DNA of 64,000 bases, taken from Lachnospiraceae bacterium. GTDB lineage: Bacteria > Bacillota > Clostridia > Lachnospirales > Lachnospiraceae. The stretch is taken from NCBI GenBank assembly GCA_017445585.1, contig JAFSTX010000023.1, forward strand, positions 1-64,000. Reading direction: 5' to 3'. The notes beneath the pieces were generated by a model, which saw only the letters and a program-made list of their open reading frames with translations, had not been told where the DNA came from and ran no database searches. Made by a program: the position numbers and the translations under genes. Within the stretch, counting starts at the first letter, position 1; each line of letters begins with the position of its first letter. Positions 5,082 to 60,586 of the stretch are shown here, piece by piece.

Positions 5082-8963
<3,882 letters not shown>

Positions 8964-52734: not shown

Positions 52735-52755
52735 ATCAAAACTACCGATACACAG

Positions 52756-52778
52756 GCGGACGTGAAAACGTCCGCTTT
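52756..52778 (+). terminator. Probable terminator of mecA
   Basis: Perfect 8-bp stem (GCGGACGT with ACGTCCGC) closed by a GAAA tetraloop, followed by TTTAGTT. The T run is short, so it may leak into the MATE gene. Confidence 0.6.
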
Positions 52779-54888: not shown

Positions 54889-55593
54889 TCAGTGCTTGAG
54901 CCGTTTGTCACTCCTGATCGCCATCTTCGTGCCCAGGCTCTGGAAGACCTGTACCAGCACTACCAGCAGGATCACCGCCGCGAACATGACCACGTATTTG
55001 TATCTGTAGTAGCCGTAGTTGATCGCTATCTTGCCCAGGCCGCCGCCGCCGATGATGCCGCTCATCGCCGAGTATCCAAGTATGGTAGTGATGGCTATGG
55101 TGCCGTTTGAGATGAGCGAGGGTACGCTTTCCGGGATCATGACCCGGATTATGATCTGCATCGGCGAGGCTCCCAGACTCTGAGCCATCTCTATAGTGTT
55201 GGGGTTCACCTCGCGAAGGCTGCCCTCTACCAGCCTGGCAATAAAAGGAAACGCCGCGATCACAAGAGGAACTATCGACGCAGGCGTGCCTACGACAGTA
55301 CCCACGACAAGGCGCGTCAGGGGGAATACAAGTATCATAAGGATCAGGAAAGGAACTGAACGCAGGATATTCACTATCACATTCAGAGCCTTCATAAGCC
55401 CCGCGGGCAGCGGCAGAACGCCGTTCTTCTCGCCAGCCACAAGCAATACGCCCAACGGCAGCCCGATGATGATTGCAAAAGCTGTGGAAAGGATCGTGAC
55501 GTATATGGTCTCCCAGGTCGCCAGCAGGAACTCGGACTCTATGATGCGCCATGCATCCGCCCATGAAGCGCCGTTAAACAGACTGTCAATCAT
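54889..55593 (-). CDS. metI: Methionine-type ABC transporter permease MetI
   Basis: A 234-residue permease with five membrane helices, partner of MetN. Family blocks are WETIYVTILSTAFAIIIGLP, VNILRSVPFLILMI and the cytosolic coupling segment EMAQSLGASPMQIIIRVMIP. GYSAMSGIIGGGGLGKIAIN is another landmark. It starts 8 bases inside metN. It is the last gene of a six-gene minus-strand run of two importers. Confidence 0.94.
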   Translation of the reverse strand: MIDSLFNGASWADAWRIIESEFLLATWETIYVTILSTAFAIIIGLPLGVLLVAGEKNGVLPLPAGLMKALNVIVNILRSVPFLILMILVFPLTRLVVGTVVGTPASIVPLVIAAFPFIARLVEGSLREVNPNTIEMAQSLGASPMQIIIRVMIPESVPSLISNGTIAITTILGYSAMSGIIGGGGLGKIAINYGYYRYKYVVMFAAVILLVVLVQVFQSLGTKMAIRSDKRLKH

Positions 55594-56608
55594 TGATATG
55601 CACCTCCTTTGCGGATACGTCAGGCTTGCTGTTCAGATATTCGAGGGCCTTCTCCAGATCACTGTATGAATCCACGCCAAGCACGAGCGACGCATATGCG
55701 TGATCTCCTATCTGTTTGGTGGAGGCCGCGGCTATATTCGCCCGTACTCCGACATCTATAGCCATGTCAGCGATGAGCGGAGCATTTGCCGAAGCGGCTC
55801 CCTCAAAGACGATGCGCAGGAACTTCTGGTTCGAGCCACCTATGATAGGCGACTCGTTATCCGCGCTCTCCGGATAGACCAGACGTCTTCCGGCAGCAGA
55901 CGAAGGATGTGAGAAAACTTCCCTCACGTCTCCCTGCTCAGCCACGACGCCGCCGTCGAGGATCGCCACACGGTTGCAGATGTCCTCCACAACGCTCATC
56001 TGGTGAGTTATCACTACGACAGTGATGCCTGTCTTTTCATTTATCTCCTTGATCAGCTGCAGGATGGAAGAAGTCGTGGCAGGATCGAGCGCACTCGTGG
56101 CCTCGTCGCACAGCAGGATCTTCGGATCTGTGGCGAGTGCCCTGGCGATGGCTATGCGCTGCTGCTGCCCGCCCGAGAGCTGTGCGGGATAGGCGCCGGC
56201 TTTGTCCGGCAGACCTACGAGCTCGAGAAGCTCCATCGCTCTCCTCCTGGCCTCGGCCTTGGGCGTGCCGATCAGTTCCAGCGGAAAAGTGATATTCTTA
56301 AGGCAGGTCCTCTGCATCAGCAGATTAAAACCCTGGAAGATCATCGTGACATTCTTCCTTGCAGCGCGAAGTTCCTTCTCGCTCAGCTTCTTCAGATCCA
56401 CTCCGTCGATCAGCACTGTGCCATCCGTGGGCCTCTCGAGCATGTTTATACAGCGCACCAGCGTGGATTTGCCTGCACCGCTCATGCCGATGATTCCGAA
56501 GATATCACCGTCGTTGATTGTGATAGAGACGTTTTTGAGCGCCTCGACATACTCTATACCTTCCGTGCTGGATCTGAAGGTCTTTGTCAGATTCCTGATC
56601 TCTATCAT
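55586..56608 (-). CDS. metN: Methionine-type ABC transporter ATPase MetN
   Basis: A 340-residue ATPase with Walker A GMSGAGKSTLVRCIN, signature QLSGGQQQRIAIARAL, Walker B ILLCDEATSALDP and H loop VVITHQMSVVED. The C-terminal NIL domain (about residues 260-340, FLRIVFEGAASANAPLIADM) lets MetN proteins sense methionine and close the transporter when it is abundant. The ATG at 56608 follows GGAGG by six bases; an ATG six codons upstream lacks such spacing. It is separated from metQ by 156 bases with two hairpins. Confidence 0.94.
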   Translation of the reverse strand: MIEIRNLTKTFRSSTEGIEYVEALKNVSITINDGDIFGIIGMSGAGKSTLVRCINMLERPTDGTVLIDGVDLKKLSEKELRAARKNVTMIFQGFNLLMQRTCLKNITFPLELIGTPKAEARRRAMELLELVGLPDKAGAYPAQLSGGQQQRIAIARALATDPKILLCDEATSALDPATTSSILQLIKEINEKTGITVVVITHQMSVVEDICNRVAILDGGVVAEQGDVREVFSHPSSAAGRRLVYPESADNESPIIGGSNQKFLRIVFEGAASANAPLIADMAIDVGVRANIAAASTKQIGDHAYASLVLGVDSYSDLEKALEYLNSKPDVSAKEVHIND

Positions 56609-56653
56609 AGGCTCCTCCGTGGGCATGATCTGTCGTCAGCTGTAAACACAAGT

Positions 56654-56720: not shown

Positions 56721-56751
56721 CATGAGCCACGGAGGTCATCCGTGGCTCATG
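56721..56751 (-). promoter_or_regulatory. 12-bp stem-loop downstream of metQ
   Basis: A perfect stem (56721-56732 with 56740-56751, loop of seven), 14 bases after the metQ stop. No strong T run follows on the minus strand (CTTTATC only). It likely protects or partly terminates the metQ message so that the binding protein outnumbers MetN and MetI. Confidence 0.6.
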
Positions 56752-56764
56752 ACGTCATAAAAAA

Positions 56765-57610
56765 TTACTTCAGCGCATCCAGCGTGGTCTGCTTGCCGCC
56801 GTAGATGCCCATGGGCTCTACGTGGACAGGTCCTACGGATACGATGTGGGTGCCGTTTTCAGCATTGAAATCGTCCATGTAGGGAACGTGCTGGAAGTAG
56901 TTCGCATCGATCTCTCCGCTCTCGACTACGTTGTTGGGCTGAACGTAATCAGTAAACTCCTTGATCTCAAGCGTGATATCCTTCTCGGCGAGGATCTCCT
57001 TTGCCACAGCCAGGATCTCGGCGTGAGGGGCGGGGCTGGCGGCAACGGTGACGGTCTGGCCGGCGAGGGCCGCATAATCGACGGAAGCATCAAAGCCGTC
57101 GCCTGCGCTCTCAACTACGGAAACTACAGCGCCGTTATACTTCTCGGCGATAAAATCCTTGACCTTCTGGCTGGAAAGAGCTGCAAAGAGGGCCTTGATC
57201 AGAGGCTCGTTCTCATTGCCTTCCTTTACGGAAAGGATGTTGGCGTAGGCAGAAGCTGCGCCCTCCTGTCCGAGTGCGGCCGTGGTAGGATCGATCCCGG
57301 CCTCAAGAGCGTAGTTGGAATTGATCACTGCGTAGTCCACATCCTGAAGGACGCTGGGCAGCTGAGCTGCCTCGACCTCTTTGAACTCGATGTTCTTGGG
57401 ATTCTCGGCGATATCCAGGATAGTAGCGGTGATTCCGGCGCCTTCCTTGAGCTTAATAAAGCCAAGATTCTCAAGGAGCAGAAGCGCGCGGGCTTCGTTA
57501 GTCGTGTCGTTGGGGACAGCTATGGTGATCTTCTCACTTCCGCCGCAGCCGGTAAGGGCAAAAGCGGAAACCGTAATGCATGCAAGTACAAAAGCTAAAA
57601 ATTTTTTCAT
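56765..57610 (-). CDS. metQ: MetQ/NlpA-family binding lipoprotein, circularly permuted
   Basis: A 281-residue lipoprotein: signal peptide with lipobox LTGC (Cys22), then the binding domain in permuted order. Residues 27-167 (ITIAVPNDTTNEARALLLLE, NPKNIEFKEVEAAQLPSVL, DYAVINSNYALEAG, EKYNGAVVSV) match the second half of normal MetQ. Residues 168-185 are a linker. Residues 186-281 (TVTVAASPAPHAEIL, KEFTDYVQPNNVVESGEIDA, NYFQHVPYMDDFN, VHVEPMGIYG, TTLDALK) match the first half. E. coli MetQ begins HIKVGV and reaches SLDEL just before VAVPNDPTN; here the chain ends at TTLDALK and starts at ITIAVPND. All ligand-pocket blocks are kept. It lies 17 bases after the TrpX-type ATPase gene. The substrate is probably methionine or a related amino acid. 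Confidence 0.92.
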   Translation of the reverse strand: MKKFLAFVLACITVSAFALTGCGGSEKITIAVPNDTTNEARALLLLENLGFIKLKEGAGITATILDIAENPKNIEFKEVEAAQLPSVLQDVDYAVINSNYALEAGIDPTTAALGQEGAASAYANILSVKEGNENEPLIKALFAALSSQKVKDFIAEKYNGAVVSVVESAGDGFDASVDYAALAGQTVTVAASPAPHAEILAVAKEILAEKDITLEIKEFTDYVQPNNVVESGEIDANYFQHVPYMDDFNAENGTHIVSVGPVHVEPMGIYGGKQTTLDALK

Positions 57611-57627: not shown

Positions 57628-58422
57628 TTATGAAAGCAGGAGCTTGTCATCTGCTTCTTCGCTGCCGCTGACGGCGCTGAATTTCGCGAGCAGATCGGCG
57701 ACCGTCAGCTTTGACTTTTCCTCACCCCGGATATCCAGGATGATGTGTCCGTCGTTCATCATGATCAGTCTGTTGCCGTGTTTTATCGCATCGCGCATAT
57801 TGTGGGTGATCATCATCGTGGTCAGGTGGTCACGCGCTATGATCTCTTCCGAAAGCTCAAGCACCTTTGCCGCTGTCTTGGGATCCAGGGCCGCCGTATG
57901 CTCGTCAAGCAGCAGGAGCTTCGGCTTTCTGATCGTTGTCATAAGCAGCGTCAGCGCCTGTCTCTGTCCTCCGGAGAGCAGGCCGACCTTTGACGTAAGG
58001 CGGCTCTCAAGCCCGAGGCCGAGCCCCGCCAGCGCCTGCCGGTACTGCTCGCGCTCCTTTTCGGTGATGCCCCAGCCAAGTCCTCTGCGCTGTCCGCGTC
58101 TGGCCGCGAGAGCGAGATTTTCCTCGATCTGCATGGTCGGCGCGGTACCCATCATGGGATCCTGGAAGACTCTTCCGAGATACTTTGCGCGTTTGTGCTC
58201 AGTCAGCTTTGTGATGTCCTCGCCGTCCAGTATGACCTTGCCCTCGTCTACCGGGAAGGTTCCGGCTATGGCGTTGAGCATCGTCGACTTACCGGCTCCG
58301 TTGCCGCCTATCACGGTAACGAAATCACCGTCCTCGAGAGTGAGATCCAGGCCCGAGAGGGCTCTTTTCTCATTTATTGTGCCCGCATTGAAGGTCTTGC
58401 ATATGCCTTTTAATTCAAGCAT
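57628..58422 (-). CDS. ABC transporter ATPase of a TrpXYZ-type amino-acid importer
   Basis: A 264-residue ATPase with Walker A IGGNGAGKSTMLNAIAG, Q loop RVFQDPMMG, signature LLSGGQRQALTLLM, Walker B LLLLDEHTAALDP and H loop MMITHNMRDAIK. The DEHTAALDP form of Walker B is typical of the ATPase that goes with the ABC_sub_bind (TrpX-like) receptors. I chose the ATG at 58422, eight bases after GGAGG, over one two codons upstream. It overlaps the permease gene by eight bases. Confidence 0.92.
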   Translation of the reverse strand: MLELKGICKTFNAGTINEKRALSGLDLTLEDGDFVTVIGGNGAGKSTMLNAIAGTFPVDEGKVILDGEDITKLTEHKRAKYLGRVFQDPMMGTAPTMQIEENLALAARRGQRRGLGWGITEKEREQYRQALAGLGLGLESRLTSKVGLLSGGQRQALTLLMTTIRKPKLLLLDEHTAALDPKTAAKVLELSEEIIARDHLTTMMITHNMRDAIKHGNRLIMMNDGHIILDIRGEEKSKLTVADLLAKFSAVSGSEEADDKLLLS

Positions 58423-59335
58423 TTCCATTGCCTCCCTTCACGGCGCGCTTTCCCGGGTGCTTTCCCTTTATATAGGGGATCGTCAGGAAAACGGCGACTA
58501 TCACTGCCGTAATGAGCTTCAGATCGTTTGTATTGAGACCCATCATCAGTACAGCCTGAAGGACGATGTAGTAGATGACGGCGCCTATGACGACCGCAAG
58601 CAGTGTGAGCGCAAAATTCTTGAATATCTTTCCAAAGAGGACCTCTCCTATTATCACAGCCGCAAGGCCGATGACGATAGCGCCGCGTCCCATGTTGATA
58701 TCGGCCGAGCCCTGGTACTGAGCCAGTAAAGCTCCCGATACCGCAACTATGCCGTTTGCAAGCATAAAGCCGAGGATAGTATTACCGGCTGTATTGATGC
58801 CCTGCGCGCGCGCCATAGCTGCATTTGCGCCTGTTGCCCTGATCGAGGCTCCTTTCTCGGTTCCGAAAAACCAGTAGAGAATGCCGATGATCACGATCGA
58901 GGCTATAAGGAGCAGGACGATCGGATTCTGGAAGCTCACGCTCCCGGCGTTACGGGAGGAGACCAGCAGATCGTATTTGTCTATACTGACTGGCTGGTTT
59001 GCCTTGCTCTCCATGATCCGCAGGTTTATCGAGTACAGCGAAAGCTGAGTCAGAATACCCGCGAGGATGGCAGGGATCCCGCATTTTGTATGCAGGACGC
59101 CTGTCACCAGACCTGCCAGAAGACCGGCGCCGAAGGCCGCCGCAAGGGCGACCCACGGATTTATCCCGCTTCTTATCATCATTATGCAGACAGCGCCTCC
59201 GGTGGCCAGCGATCCGTCTACGGTCAGATCAGAGGAATTCAGGATCCTGAAGGTGATGAACACACCTATGGCCATGAGTCCCCAGATCATACCCTGTGAT
59301 ATGGCCCCGGGAAGGGCGTTGAGTAATGCTGACAT
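58415..59335 (-). CDS. ABC transporter permease of a TrpXYZ-type importer
   Basis: A 306-residue permease of the BPD_transp_2 (LivH/RbsC-like) group with about nine helices. It begins LLNALPGAISQGMIWGLMAI and holds LTVDGSLATGGAVCIMMI and the coupling region KGASIRATGANAAMARAQGI. This receptor-permease-ATPase set is known for tryptophan, tyrosine or similar substrates in Firmicutes (TrpXYZ). It starts after AAGGAGG, 9 bases from the binding-protein gene. Confidence 0.92.
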   Translation of the reverse strand: MSALLNALPGAISQGMIWGLMAIGVFITFRILNSSDLTVDGSLATGGAVCIMMIRSGINPWVALAAAFGAGLLAGLVTGVLHTKCGIPAILAGILTQLSLYSINLRIMESKANQPVSIDKYDLLVSSRNAGSVSFQNPIVLLLIASIVIIGILYWFFGTEKGASIRATGANAAMARAQGINTAGNTILGFMLANGIVAVSGALLAQYQGSADINMGRGAIVIGLAAVIIGEVLFGKIFKNFALTLLAVVIGAVIYYIVLQAVLMMGLNTNDLKLITAVIVAVFLTIPYIKGKHPGKRAVKGGNGNA

Positions 59336-59344
59336 TGATCCTCC

Positions 59345-60370
59345 TTACTGGATCGGCTCGTAACCCTCCACAGGGGAGATCCCAAGCTTCTCGCACATAT
59401 CCGCGTTGTACAGCTTAACAAGCTCAGGGGAGTACTCGATAGGCATCTCTTTGACGTCAGCCTCACCGGTCAGGATCTTGACTGCCATCTTGCCGGTAGC
59501 AACTCCCAGATCGTAGTAGTCGATGGAGATGGTGGCCACGCCGCAGCCCTTGCAGATATTGGACTCTCCCGCGATAACGGGTACGGCGGCCGGGATGACG
59601 ATATTTGCGATGGCTTCAGCATTGGAAGCGGCAGTGTTGTCGGTAGGGATAAAGATGACATCGCTGGCATCGCAGGCAGCCTGTGTAACGGCGGCTACGT
59701 CATTCGTATCGGTAAAGGCAAAACGGGTGCCGGTCAGTCCGAGATCAGCAAAGTATTTTTCCATCTCGCTGACCTGGAACTCGCTGTTGGCTTCTGCGGA
59801 GCAGAAAAGCAGTCCGACGTTCTTTGCCTCAGGGAACCATTCCTTGATCATCTTTGCCTGAGCCTCAAGGTCAGCCAGGTCAGAGGTACCGGAGATATTG
59901 TTTCCAACGGTGCCGGTCCACTGATCAAGCGGGATCTCGAGAGCTACGGGATAAGCCGTAACGGAAGTGCCGAGGATCGGGATCGTGTCAGTAGCTGCAG
60001 CGGCCGCGGTAACGGCAGGAGTGGCGTTAGCCATGATAAGATCCACGTCTTTTGCGATAAAACCGTTAACTATCGTAGTGCAGTTTACGCTCTCTCCGGA
60101 GGCGTTCTGCTCATCAAAGCTAACCTTGTCGCCGAGGGCCTCGGTAAGCGCGTCCTTGAATCCCTTTGTAGCGGACTCAAGAGCGTCGTGCTGAACGAGC
60201 TGGCAGATACCTACAAGAAATGTCTCGTCACCGGTCTGTCCCTGTTCCTGGGACTGGCCCTGAGCCTCAGAGCTTCCCGCAGGCTGGGAGGCATTCTCCT
60301 CGCTGCCGCCGCAGGCGACAAGGCTCAGCATGAGACATAAAGCAACACCAAACGATACAAACTTCTTCAT
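59345..60370 (-). CDS. ABC_sub_bind (TrpX-type) amino-acid-binding lipoprotein
   Basis: A 341-residue lipoprotein: signal peptide KKFVSFGVALCLMLSL with lipobox VACG (Cys20), a Ser/Gln/Glu linker, then VGICQLVQHDALESATKGFK, the start of the ABC_sub_bind (PF04392) fold. GTSVTAYPVALEIPLDQWTG and the end block CGVATISIDYYDLGVATGKM also match. Relatives bind tryptophan or tyrosine. I chose the ATG at 60370 after AAAGGAG. The gene is headed by a leader peptide with seven Tyr codons and an attenuator (60400-60550), so tyrosine is the likelier ligand; this is inference. Confidence 0.9.
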   Translation of the reverse strand: MKKFVSFGVALCLMLSLVACGGSEENASQPAGSSEAQGQSQEQGQTGDETFLVGICQLVQHDALESATKGFKDALTEALGDKVSFDEQNASGESVNCTTIVNGFIAKDVDLIMANATPAVTAAAAATDTIPILGTSVTAYPVALEIPLDQWTGTVGNNISGTSDLADLEAQAKMIKEWFPEAKNVGLLFCSAEANSEFQVSEMEKYFADLGLTGTRFAFTDTNDVAAVTQAACDASDVIFIPTDNTAASNAEAIANIVIPAAVPVIAGESNICKGCGVATISIDYYDLGVATGKMAVKILTGEADVKEMPIEYSPELVKLYNADMCEKLGISPVEGYEPIQ

Positions 60371-60399
60371 GACTTTTCTCCTTTTCTTTTTTGATAACC

Positions 60400-60430
60400 A
60401 AAAAGCGGTTCCGCCTATGCGAAACCGCTT
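60400..60430 (-). terminator. Attenuator terminator before the binding-protein gene
   Basis: A 12-bp stem (60430-60419 with 60414-60403 on the minus strand, one G-U pair, loop ATAG), followed by T5. It lies 36 bases after the leader-peptide stop and 29 before the binding-protein ATG, where transcription attenuation would act. The competing antiterminator was not identified by eye. Confidence 0.82.
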
Positions 60431-60466
60431 GGTAAACAATACGGAAAATACGCTCAGGCGAATGAA

Positions 60467-60550
60467 CTAATACACGCAGCGAAAATAGCCGTACATGTAG
60501 CCGGCCATCTCCATATACATATAATAGTTTTTCCTCGTCTGTGTATTCAT
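60467..60550 (-). CDS. Tyr/Met-rich leader peptide
   Basis: A 27-codon frame ending in TAG. It reads MNTQTRKNYYMYMEMAG and then YMYGYFRCVY, with seven Tyr and five Met. The Tyr codons are at positions 9, 10, 12, 18, 20, 22 and 27. A shorter form from the ATG at 60520 (17 codons, five Tyr) has a better ribosome site (GAGGA, 11 bases away). The first ATG lies only seven bases beyond the -10, so the transcript might be leaderless there. Ribosome stalling on Tyr or Met codons would decide whether the hairpin at 60400 forms. It heads two amino-acid importers. Confidence 0.72.
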   Translation of the reverse strand: MNTQTRKNYYMYMEMAGYMYGYFRCVY

Positions 60551-60557
60551 GTGATGT

Positions 60558-60586
60558 AATTTAGCACTGTAAAGTGATGATGTCAA
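60558..60586 (-). promoter_or_regulatory. Promoter of the leader and two-importer operon
   Basis: Minus strand TTGACA (60581-60586), a 17-base spacer and TAAATT (60558-60563). Confidence 0.8.

Follow-up and report, generated by a model that had tools for sequence, protein, structure and literature searches.

A putative leader-peptide attenuator with tyrosine and methionine codons behind a HisR-type operator in an ABC importer operon of a Lachnospiraceae bacterium

The region upstream of an ABC amino-acid importer operon in the genome of an uncultured Lachnospiraceae bacterium from the gut is best read as a ribosome-mediated attenuator whose control codons are Tyr (and Met); it would follow a promoter that HisR can repress and would govern the importer genes. 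We give this reading a probability of about 0.6. Coordinates are positions in the window, i.e. the whole stretch of 64,000 nt that was analysed, and the genome to which it belongs is denoted G000. Promoter, leader, hairpin and importer operon are all on the minus strand, and the order promoter, frame, hairpin, gene, as well as the spacing of these elements, fits an attenuator.

The promoter was read directly from the sequence as a sigma-70/A-type element, TTGACA-17-(TG.)TAAATT (60558..60586, minus strand), consisting of a -35 box TTGACA at 60586-60581, a 17-nt spacer and a -10 box TAAATT at 60563-60558 preceded by TG (10/12 matches). Transcription is predicted to start at about 60549-60552, and no promoter-like site was seen in the 32 nt between the terminator and the first gene. 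The first-pass annotation had described this promoter, a 27-codon frame with seven Tyr and five Met codons, and a 12-bp hairpin followed by T5; all were confirmed at their positions on the minus strand. The frame (MNTQTRKNYYMYMEMAGYMYGYFRCVY; 60467..60550, minus strand) runs from an ATG at 60550 to a TAG stop codon at 60469-60467 and contains no His and no Trp codons. Its assigned start codon is probably wrong. The -10 box ends 7 nt upstream of ATG 60550 and, since initiation is predicted near 60550, this codon would stand right at the RNA's 5' terminus, as a leaderless AUG. A Shine-Dalgarno-like GAGGA (60532..60536, minus strand; direct reading) points instead to an inner ATG at 60520, at a somewhat long spacing of 11 nt. 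Because the first ATG coincides with the predicted transcription start, the 17-codon frame from 60520 (MYMEMAGYMYGYFRCVY; 60467..60520, minus strand; five Tyr and three internal Met codons) is the likelier leader peptide. The two starts have the stop codon in common, as well as every control codon from Tyr12 onward (Tyr12, 18, 20 and 22 and Met13, 15 and 19, numbered from 60550). Seven Tyr codons in a frame of 10-40 codons were reached in 1/5000 dinucleotide shuffles of 60551-60431 (P ~0.0002), and the same count for any of ten amino acids in 52/5000 (~1%).

Two other frames were considered and set aside. An open frame of ~97 codons (60267-60560, minus strand, third frame), which has no early start codon and spans the leader, the terminator and the start of the first gene, was evaluated as a gene remnant; it matched nothing in Pfam, and among relatives its only homologues were that in G004, a second genome described below, and one marginal match. 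Another frame with Tyr codons, ahead of a terminator at 52754-52777 (plus strand), turned out to be no more than the 3' terminus of the gene before it.

Folding identified an intrinsic terminator at 60403..60430 (minus strand), AAGCGGTTTCGC-ATAG-GCGGAACCGCTT followed by TTT. Its hairpin has 12 bp (one of them G-U), a 4-nt loop and an energy of -19.1 kcal/mol, and the T5 run includes two T within the stem. The first-pass annotation had proposed RNA folding as a check for an antiterminator, and an alternative pairing between leader and terminator was indeed found, placed as expected. Its 5' strand, UUCGCCUG (region 2; 60455..60462, minus strand), begins 4 nt past the leader stop codon and pairs with UAGGCGGA at 60417-60410, the remainder of the antiterminator occupying 60410..60453 (minus strand; folding). 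Within it, GCG at 60453-60451 pairs with CGC at 60421-60419 and encloses an inner hairpin CCGUAUUG...CAAGCGG; these inner helices tie up the 5' arm of the terminator, including its CAAGCGG. The antiterminator reaches -20.8 kcal/mol with RNA exposed to 60409 and the ribosome at or before Tyr22, compared with only -10.3 kcal/mol for the best structure when the ribosome is at the stop codon. A ribosome at the leader stop covers UUCGCCUG, which is free when the ribosome is stalled at Tyr18, 20 or 22. By this calculation the antiterminator and the terminator are mutually exclusive, the former being free to form at control-codon stalls and blocked by a ribosome at the stop. A third structure, a long leader hairpin (region 1:2; 60443..60548, minus strand; folding) in which CAG/CGAG is paired with UUCG/CUG, would in the folding model hide the antiterminator strand in untranslated RNA. 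This hairpin is palindromic (TAT-ATG-TAT, TACATGTA), and the RNA 60551-60390 (162 nt) folds at -61.5 kcal/mol with a z score of -5.8.

Partition-function calculations were performed for successive ribosome positions. At an exposed end of 60406 the probability of the terminator is 1.00 with the ribosome at the stop codon and 0.98 with no ribosome, and falls to 0.17 for a stall at Tyr27, 0.01 at Tyr22, 0.29 at Tyr20, 0.35 at Tyr18 and 0.14 at Tyr12. A stall at Met15 favours the terminator (P 0.95), which counts against the model. With three more nucleotides exposed, and in the full-length RNA, the terminator is favoured whatever the ribosome state; the decision must therefore be kinetic. The E. 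coli trp leader, used as a control with its sequence verified against E. coli genomes, behaves similarly: the terminator probability at intermediate length is 0.13 in the stalled state versus 0.998 at the stop, and at full length the terminator prevails in all states. An antiterminator of equal or better energy was obtained in 0.35% of spacer shuffles and a comparable switch in 46/3000 shuffled spacers (1.5%), these tests and the codon-count shuffles being partly independent and the locus having been picked after the fact.

The post hoc choice of locus behind these shuffle values would suit a simpler interpretation, according to which the hairpin is a plain terminator or a partial road-block, acting on upstream transcripts or for tuning, and the frame and the alternative pairing arose by chance. 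The leader is also a single evolutionary instance, recent and lineage-restricted. However, the hairpin separates the first gene from the sole strong promoter, which means that expression of the operon needs either regulation or leak, and the frame, the position of its stop codon and the antiterminator all agree with one another. We regard chance as an improbable explanation.

The attenuator would work as follows. The RNA would start near 60550, and a ribosome would translate the leader, most likely from 60520. When Tyr-tRNA (and Met-tRNA) is charged, the ribosome would reach the stop codon and cover UUCGCCUG at 60462-60455; the antiterminator could then not close, the hairpin at 60430-60403 would form and transcription would terminate ~30 nt before the first gene. 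When Tyr (or Met) is short, the ribosome would stall at Tyr12-Tyr22 or Met13-19, leaving UUCGCCUG free to pair with UAGGCGGA, with the 5' arm of the terminator held by the inner helices. The antiterminator would close ~6 nt ahead of completion of the terminator 3' arm, and the polymerase would read through. Without translation, the long leader hairpin would capture UUCGCCUG and the terminator would form. Tyr is taken as the main signal and Met as a possible one.

The first-pass annotation had seen no T-box element here, and this is borne out by Rfam searches of the leader region: no family, the T-box included, reaches its cut-off, and other families give chance-level scores only. A degenerate T-box or another tRNA-sensing leader was considered, and two features recall one: the terminator motif AGGCGGAACCGC bears a superficial likeness to the T-box motif AGGGUGGNACCGCG, and T-boxes control remote members of the transporter family. 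The T-box model RF00230 gives no match in the leader even at an E value of 10, but the same model finds two T-boxes in the genome. Their specifiers, judged by eye, are Thr and Trp; no Tyr T-box was found, a point in favour of the attenuator reading. No stem I with a specifier loop and AGGGUGGNACCGCG antiterminator bulge was recognised in the leader; T-boxes serving as positive controls were detected elsewhere. UGGN is absent, and the similar motif is part of the 3' arm of the terminator itself, not placed before a separate antiterminator partner. This explanation is largely refuted, and we assign it very little weight.

A predicted operator for HisR (TrpR/YerC family), CACTTTACAGTGCTAAATTA, overlaps the -10 box (60557..60576, minus strand) and matches 12/14 positions of the consensus cacTTTAnnnnnnTAAAgtg (PMC9413887), with an imperfect right half-site; the site as a whole has a shuffle P of 0.008. 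A site with at least 12/14 matching positions within 250 nt was present in 13/22 close orthologous upstream regions, versus 0.04 expected from shuffles. The same palindrome lies upstream of the TrpR-family gene both in G000 (a PF01371 gene at G000:C29, with hisZ- and hisG-like genes after it) and in the genus members G001 and G002. HisR would bind at the promoter of the importer operon, and for Eubacteriales the hisXYZ* operons have been predicted to be targets of HisR (PMC9413887). In the orthologues of G003 and G005 the operator is followed by the gene, with no leader, terminator or metQ, and because of this the ancestral state appears, from sequence comparison, to have been a HisR-controlled importer to which the leader was added later. 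Attenuation, as proposed in the first-pass annotation, stands as the best reading of the leader; the HisR operator over the promoter had been missed and the importer had not been identified.

Two further associations of HisR-like sites with RNA elements were observed. In G005 (G005:C9:12641-12923) a HisR-like operator, CGCTTTACATGACTAAAGTG, directly precedes a T-box, whose specifier was judged by eye to be UGG (Trp), and a TrpB-like gene, a possible case of double control by repressor and T-box. In G000 itself (G000:C64, near 5770-5789) a weak HisR-like site stands immediately ahead of a lysine riboswitch (RF00168, 86 bits) that precedes an amino-acid substrate-binding protein gene.

The operon (all genes on the minus strand) begins with a substrate-binding lipoprotein (SBP) of the TrpX/HisX/TyrX family (PF04392, profile match; 59345..60370), followed by a BPD_transp_2 permease (58415..59335) and an ABC ATPase (57628..58428). 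A PF04392 SBP, a BPD_transp_2 permease and an ABC ATPase in one operon correspond to the layout of hisXYZ*/trpXYZ ABC importers. With the TrpX equivalog model the SBP reaches 214.9 bits; because this is far below the cut-off of 390, it was not filed as TrpX. Starting 17 nt past the ATPase gene is a gene for a circularly permuted MetQ/NlpA-type lipoprotein (56765..57610), in which residues 26-163 match the C-terminal half of MetQ (4IB2 residues 108-249) and residues 184-280 the N-terminal half (residues 10-106). Among 61 genomes searched, only G000 and G004 gave a full-length match to the permuted MetQ; the remaining genomes match it as two separate halves, in the normal order where coordinates were checked. 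A metN gene, encoding an ABC ATPase with a NIL domain (55586..56626), lies 138 nt downstream of metQ and is possibly on the same transcript. Between metQ and metN a GC-rich hairpin, GAGCCACGGA-TGACCT-CCGTGGCTC (56722-56750, minus strand), was observed without a T-run; it may mark the end of the operon or be a stabilising element.

The closest solved relative of the SBP is CD0873 (E = 3e-43), a tyrosine-binding SBP of C. difficile (PMC6816091), which counts in favour of the attenuator reading. The importer itself is predicted to carry histidine because of the upstream HisR sites. The Glu/Tyr pocket pair to which CD0873 is thought in its description to owe a Tyr preference (Glu263/Tyr279 there) is present in the SBP, and was considered as proof of a Tyr ligand and rejected: nearly all family members keep it. 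Since these include relatives under HisR or Trp T-box control, the pair cannot decide between Tyr and His. T-boxes upstream of remote SBP relatives have specifiers, read by eye, for Tyr (L027), Phe (L024) and Trp (L028 and L029), and because these differ the family spans several amino acids; among its members are binders of Tyr, of Trp and of Phe, and predicted binders of His. The chief mismatch in the attenuator reading is that between the leader codons, which include no His, and the predicted histidine importer. The Met codons would be understandable in view of the metQ gene of the operon.

That the predicted substrate does not match Tyr speaks for a further explanation, in which the switch is real and its signal is something other than the charging of Tyr- or Met-tRNA (general ribosome slowing, the coupling state, a protein or a ligand), the codons being incidental to the palindromic hairpin. 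The leader hairpin is unusually stable and carries the Tyr/Met codons in its arms, and the ~1% of shuffles in which any amino acid reaches a count of seven lends the same view some support. Against it, no Rfam RNA matches the leader, and the position of the stop codon is precisely such that a ribosome terminating there covers the antiterminator strand. We consider such a signal unlikely, and retain Tyr/Met charging as the preferred reading.

The first-pass annotation had also proposed a comparison of the leader in related genomes. The frame recurs in G004 as part of a recently exchanged block; the closest hisX orthologues lack it, and so do the other family genomes searched. The leader was found only in G000 and G004, where the copies are identical at 180/181 positions. 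It is absent from the orthologues of G003, G005 and ~35 other genomes, and a blastn search of 397 family genomes yielded no further copy, the leader being absent from the other 396. From ~60600 to ~56700, i.e. over the promoter, the leader and four genes, the divergence of G004 is 0.6-2.9%, compared with ~19-20% in the flanks (metN, which lies outside the block, and the upstream gene). Because of this difference, comparison of the two genomes indicates that the promoter, leader and operon form a cassette recently exchanged between G000 and G004; the ends of the block fall near the promoter and near the metQ/metN gap. Conservation in G004 was rejected as evidence for function because the block was exchanged so recently, and the evolutionarily independent instances of the leader number one only. 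An interpretation as a repeat or mobile element was likewise rejected: the 231-nt region is single-copy in the genome and had no match in phage and plasmid records. More tentatively, the leader may sense Tyr and Met together, atop the HisR operator, on behalf of a fused importer operon that has spread between species as one cassette. As part of this same reading, which we think possible and yet rather doubtful, the fused operon would combine an aromatic/His ABC system with the circularly permuted MetQ.

A close known system is the E. coli trp operon, with which the locus shares an operator of the TrpR family at its promoter, a short leader peptide containing the control codons, a mutually exclusive antiterminator and terminator, a stop codon adjoining the antiterminator strand and the partition-function behaviour described above. 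It differs in having Tyr/Met instead of Trp codons, transporter instead of biosynthesis genes and a HisR-type repressor site, and in an antiterminator that uses the terminator loop and inner 3' arm besides the 5' arm. In Firmicutes, His leader-peptide attenuators have been predicted for Bacillus hisZ/hisS* (PMC2965389) and in Peptostreptococcaceae and Erysipelotrichales (PMC9413887). These are likewise classical leader-peptide attenuators associated with his-related genes; they have runs of His codons and precede his operons or hisS paralogues, whereas the codons here are Tyr/Met. The cases in PMC9413887 were reported in operons without HisR or His T-box control, unlike the present locus, which combines a HisR site with an attenuator. 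Operon type, operator consensus and operator position are those of the HisR-regulated hisXYZ* operons of Eubacteriales (PMC9413887), and close orthologues occur in the genus (G003 and G005), but the orthologous operons seen here lack both leader peptide and terminator. The CD0873 importer (PDB entries 6HNI-6HNK; PMC6816091) and trpXYZ (PMC9382623) belong to the same SBP family, at only ~33% identity. The trpXYZ operon is under a Trp T-box (PMC9382623) and is similar in its amino-acid-responsive control by premature termination, exerted there by the T-box. A Phe leader-peptide attenuator has been suggested before aroF in Acholeplasma, a mollicute (PMC8632094), and a survey from 2005 listed attenuators for His, Thr and Phe and T-boxes for Tyr (PMC1262725). 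In Firmicutes, T-boxes are the mechanism to which regulation by tyrosine is attributed, and phrase searches for a tyrosine attenuator gave no paper in the library covered.

On the best reading, the switch is of an ordinary type, ribosome-mediated attenuation, with a Tyr/Met specificity of which no record was found. If this is true, repressor-plus-attenuator control as in E. coli trp would have arisen separately in a transporter operon of the Lachnospiraceae, and the finding would be relevant to the question whether importers of this SBP family that are predicted to take up 'histidine' carry other amino acids.
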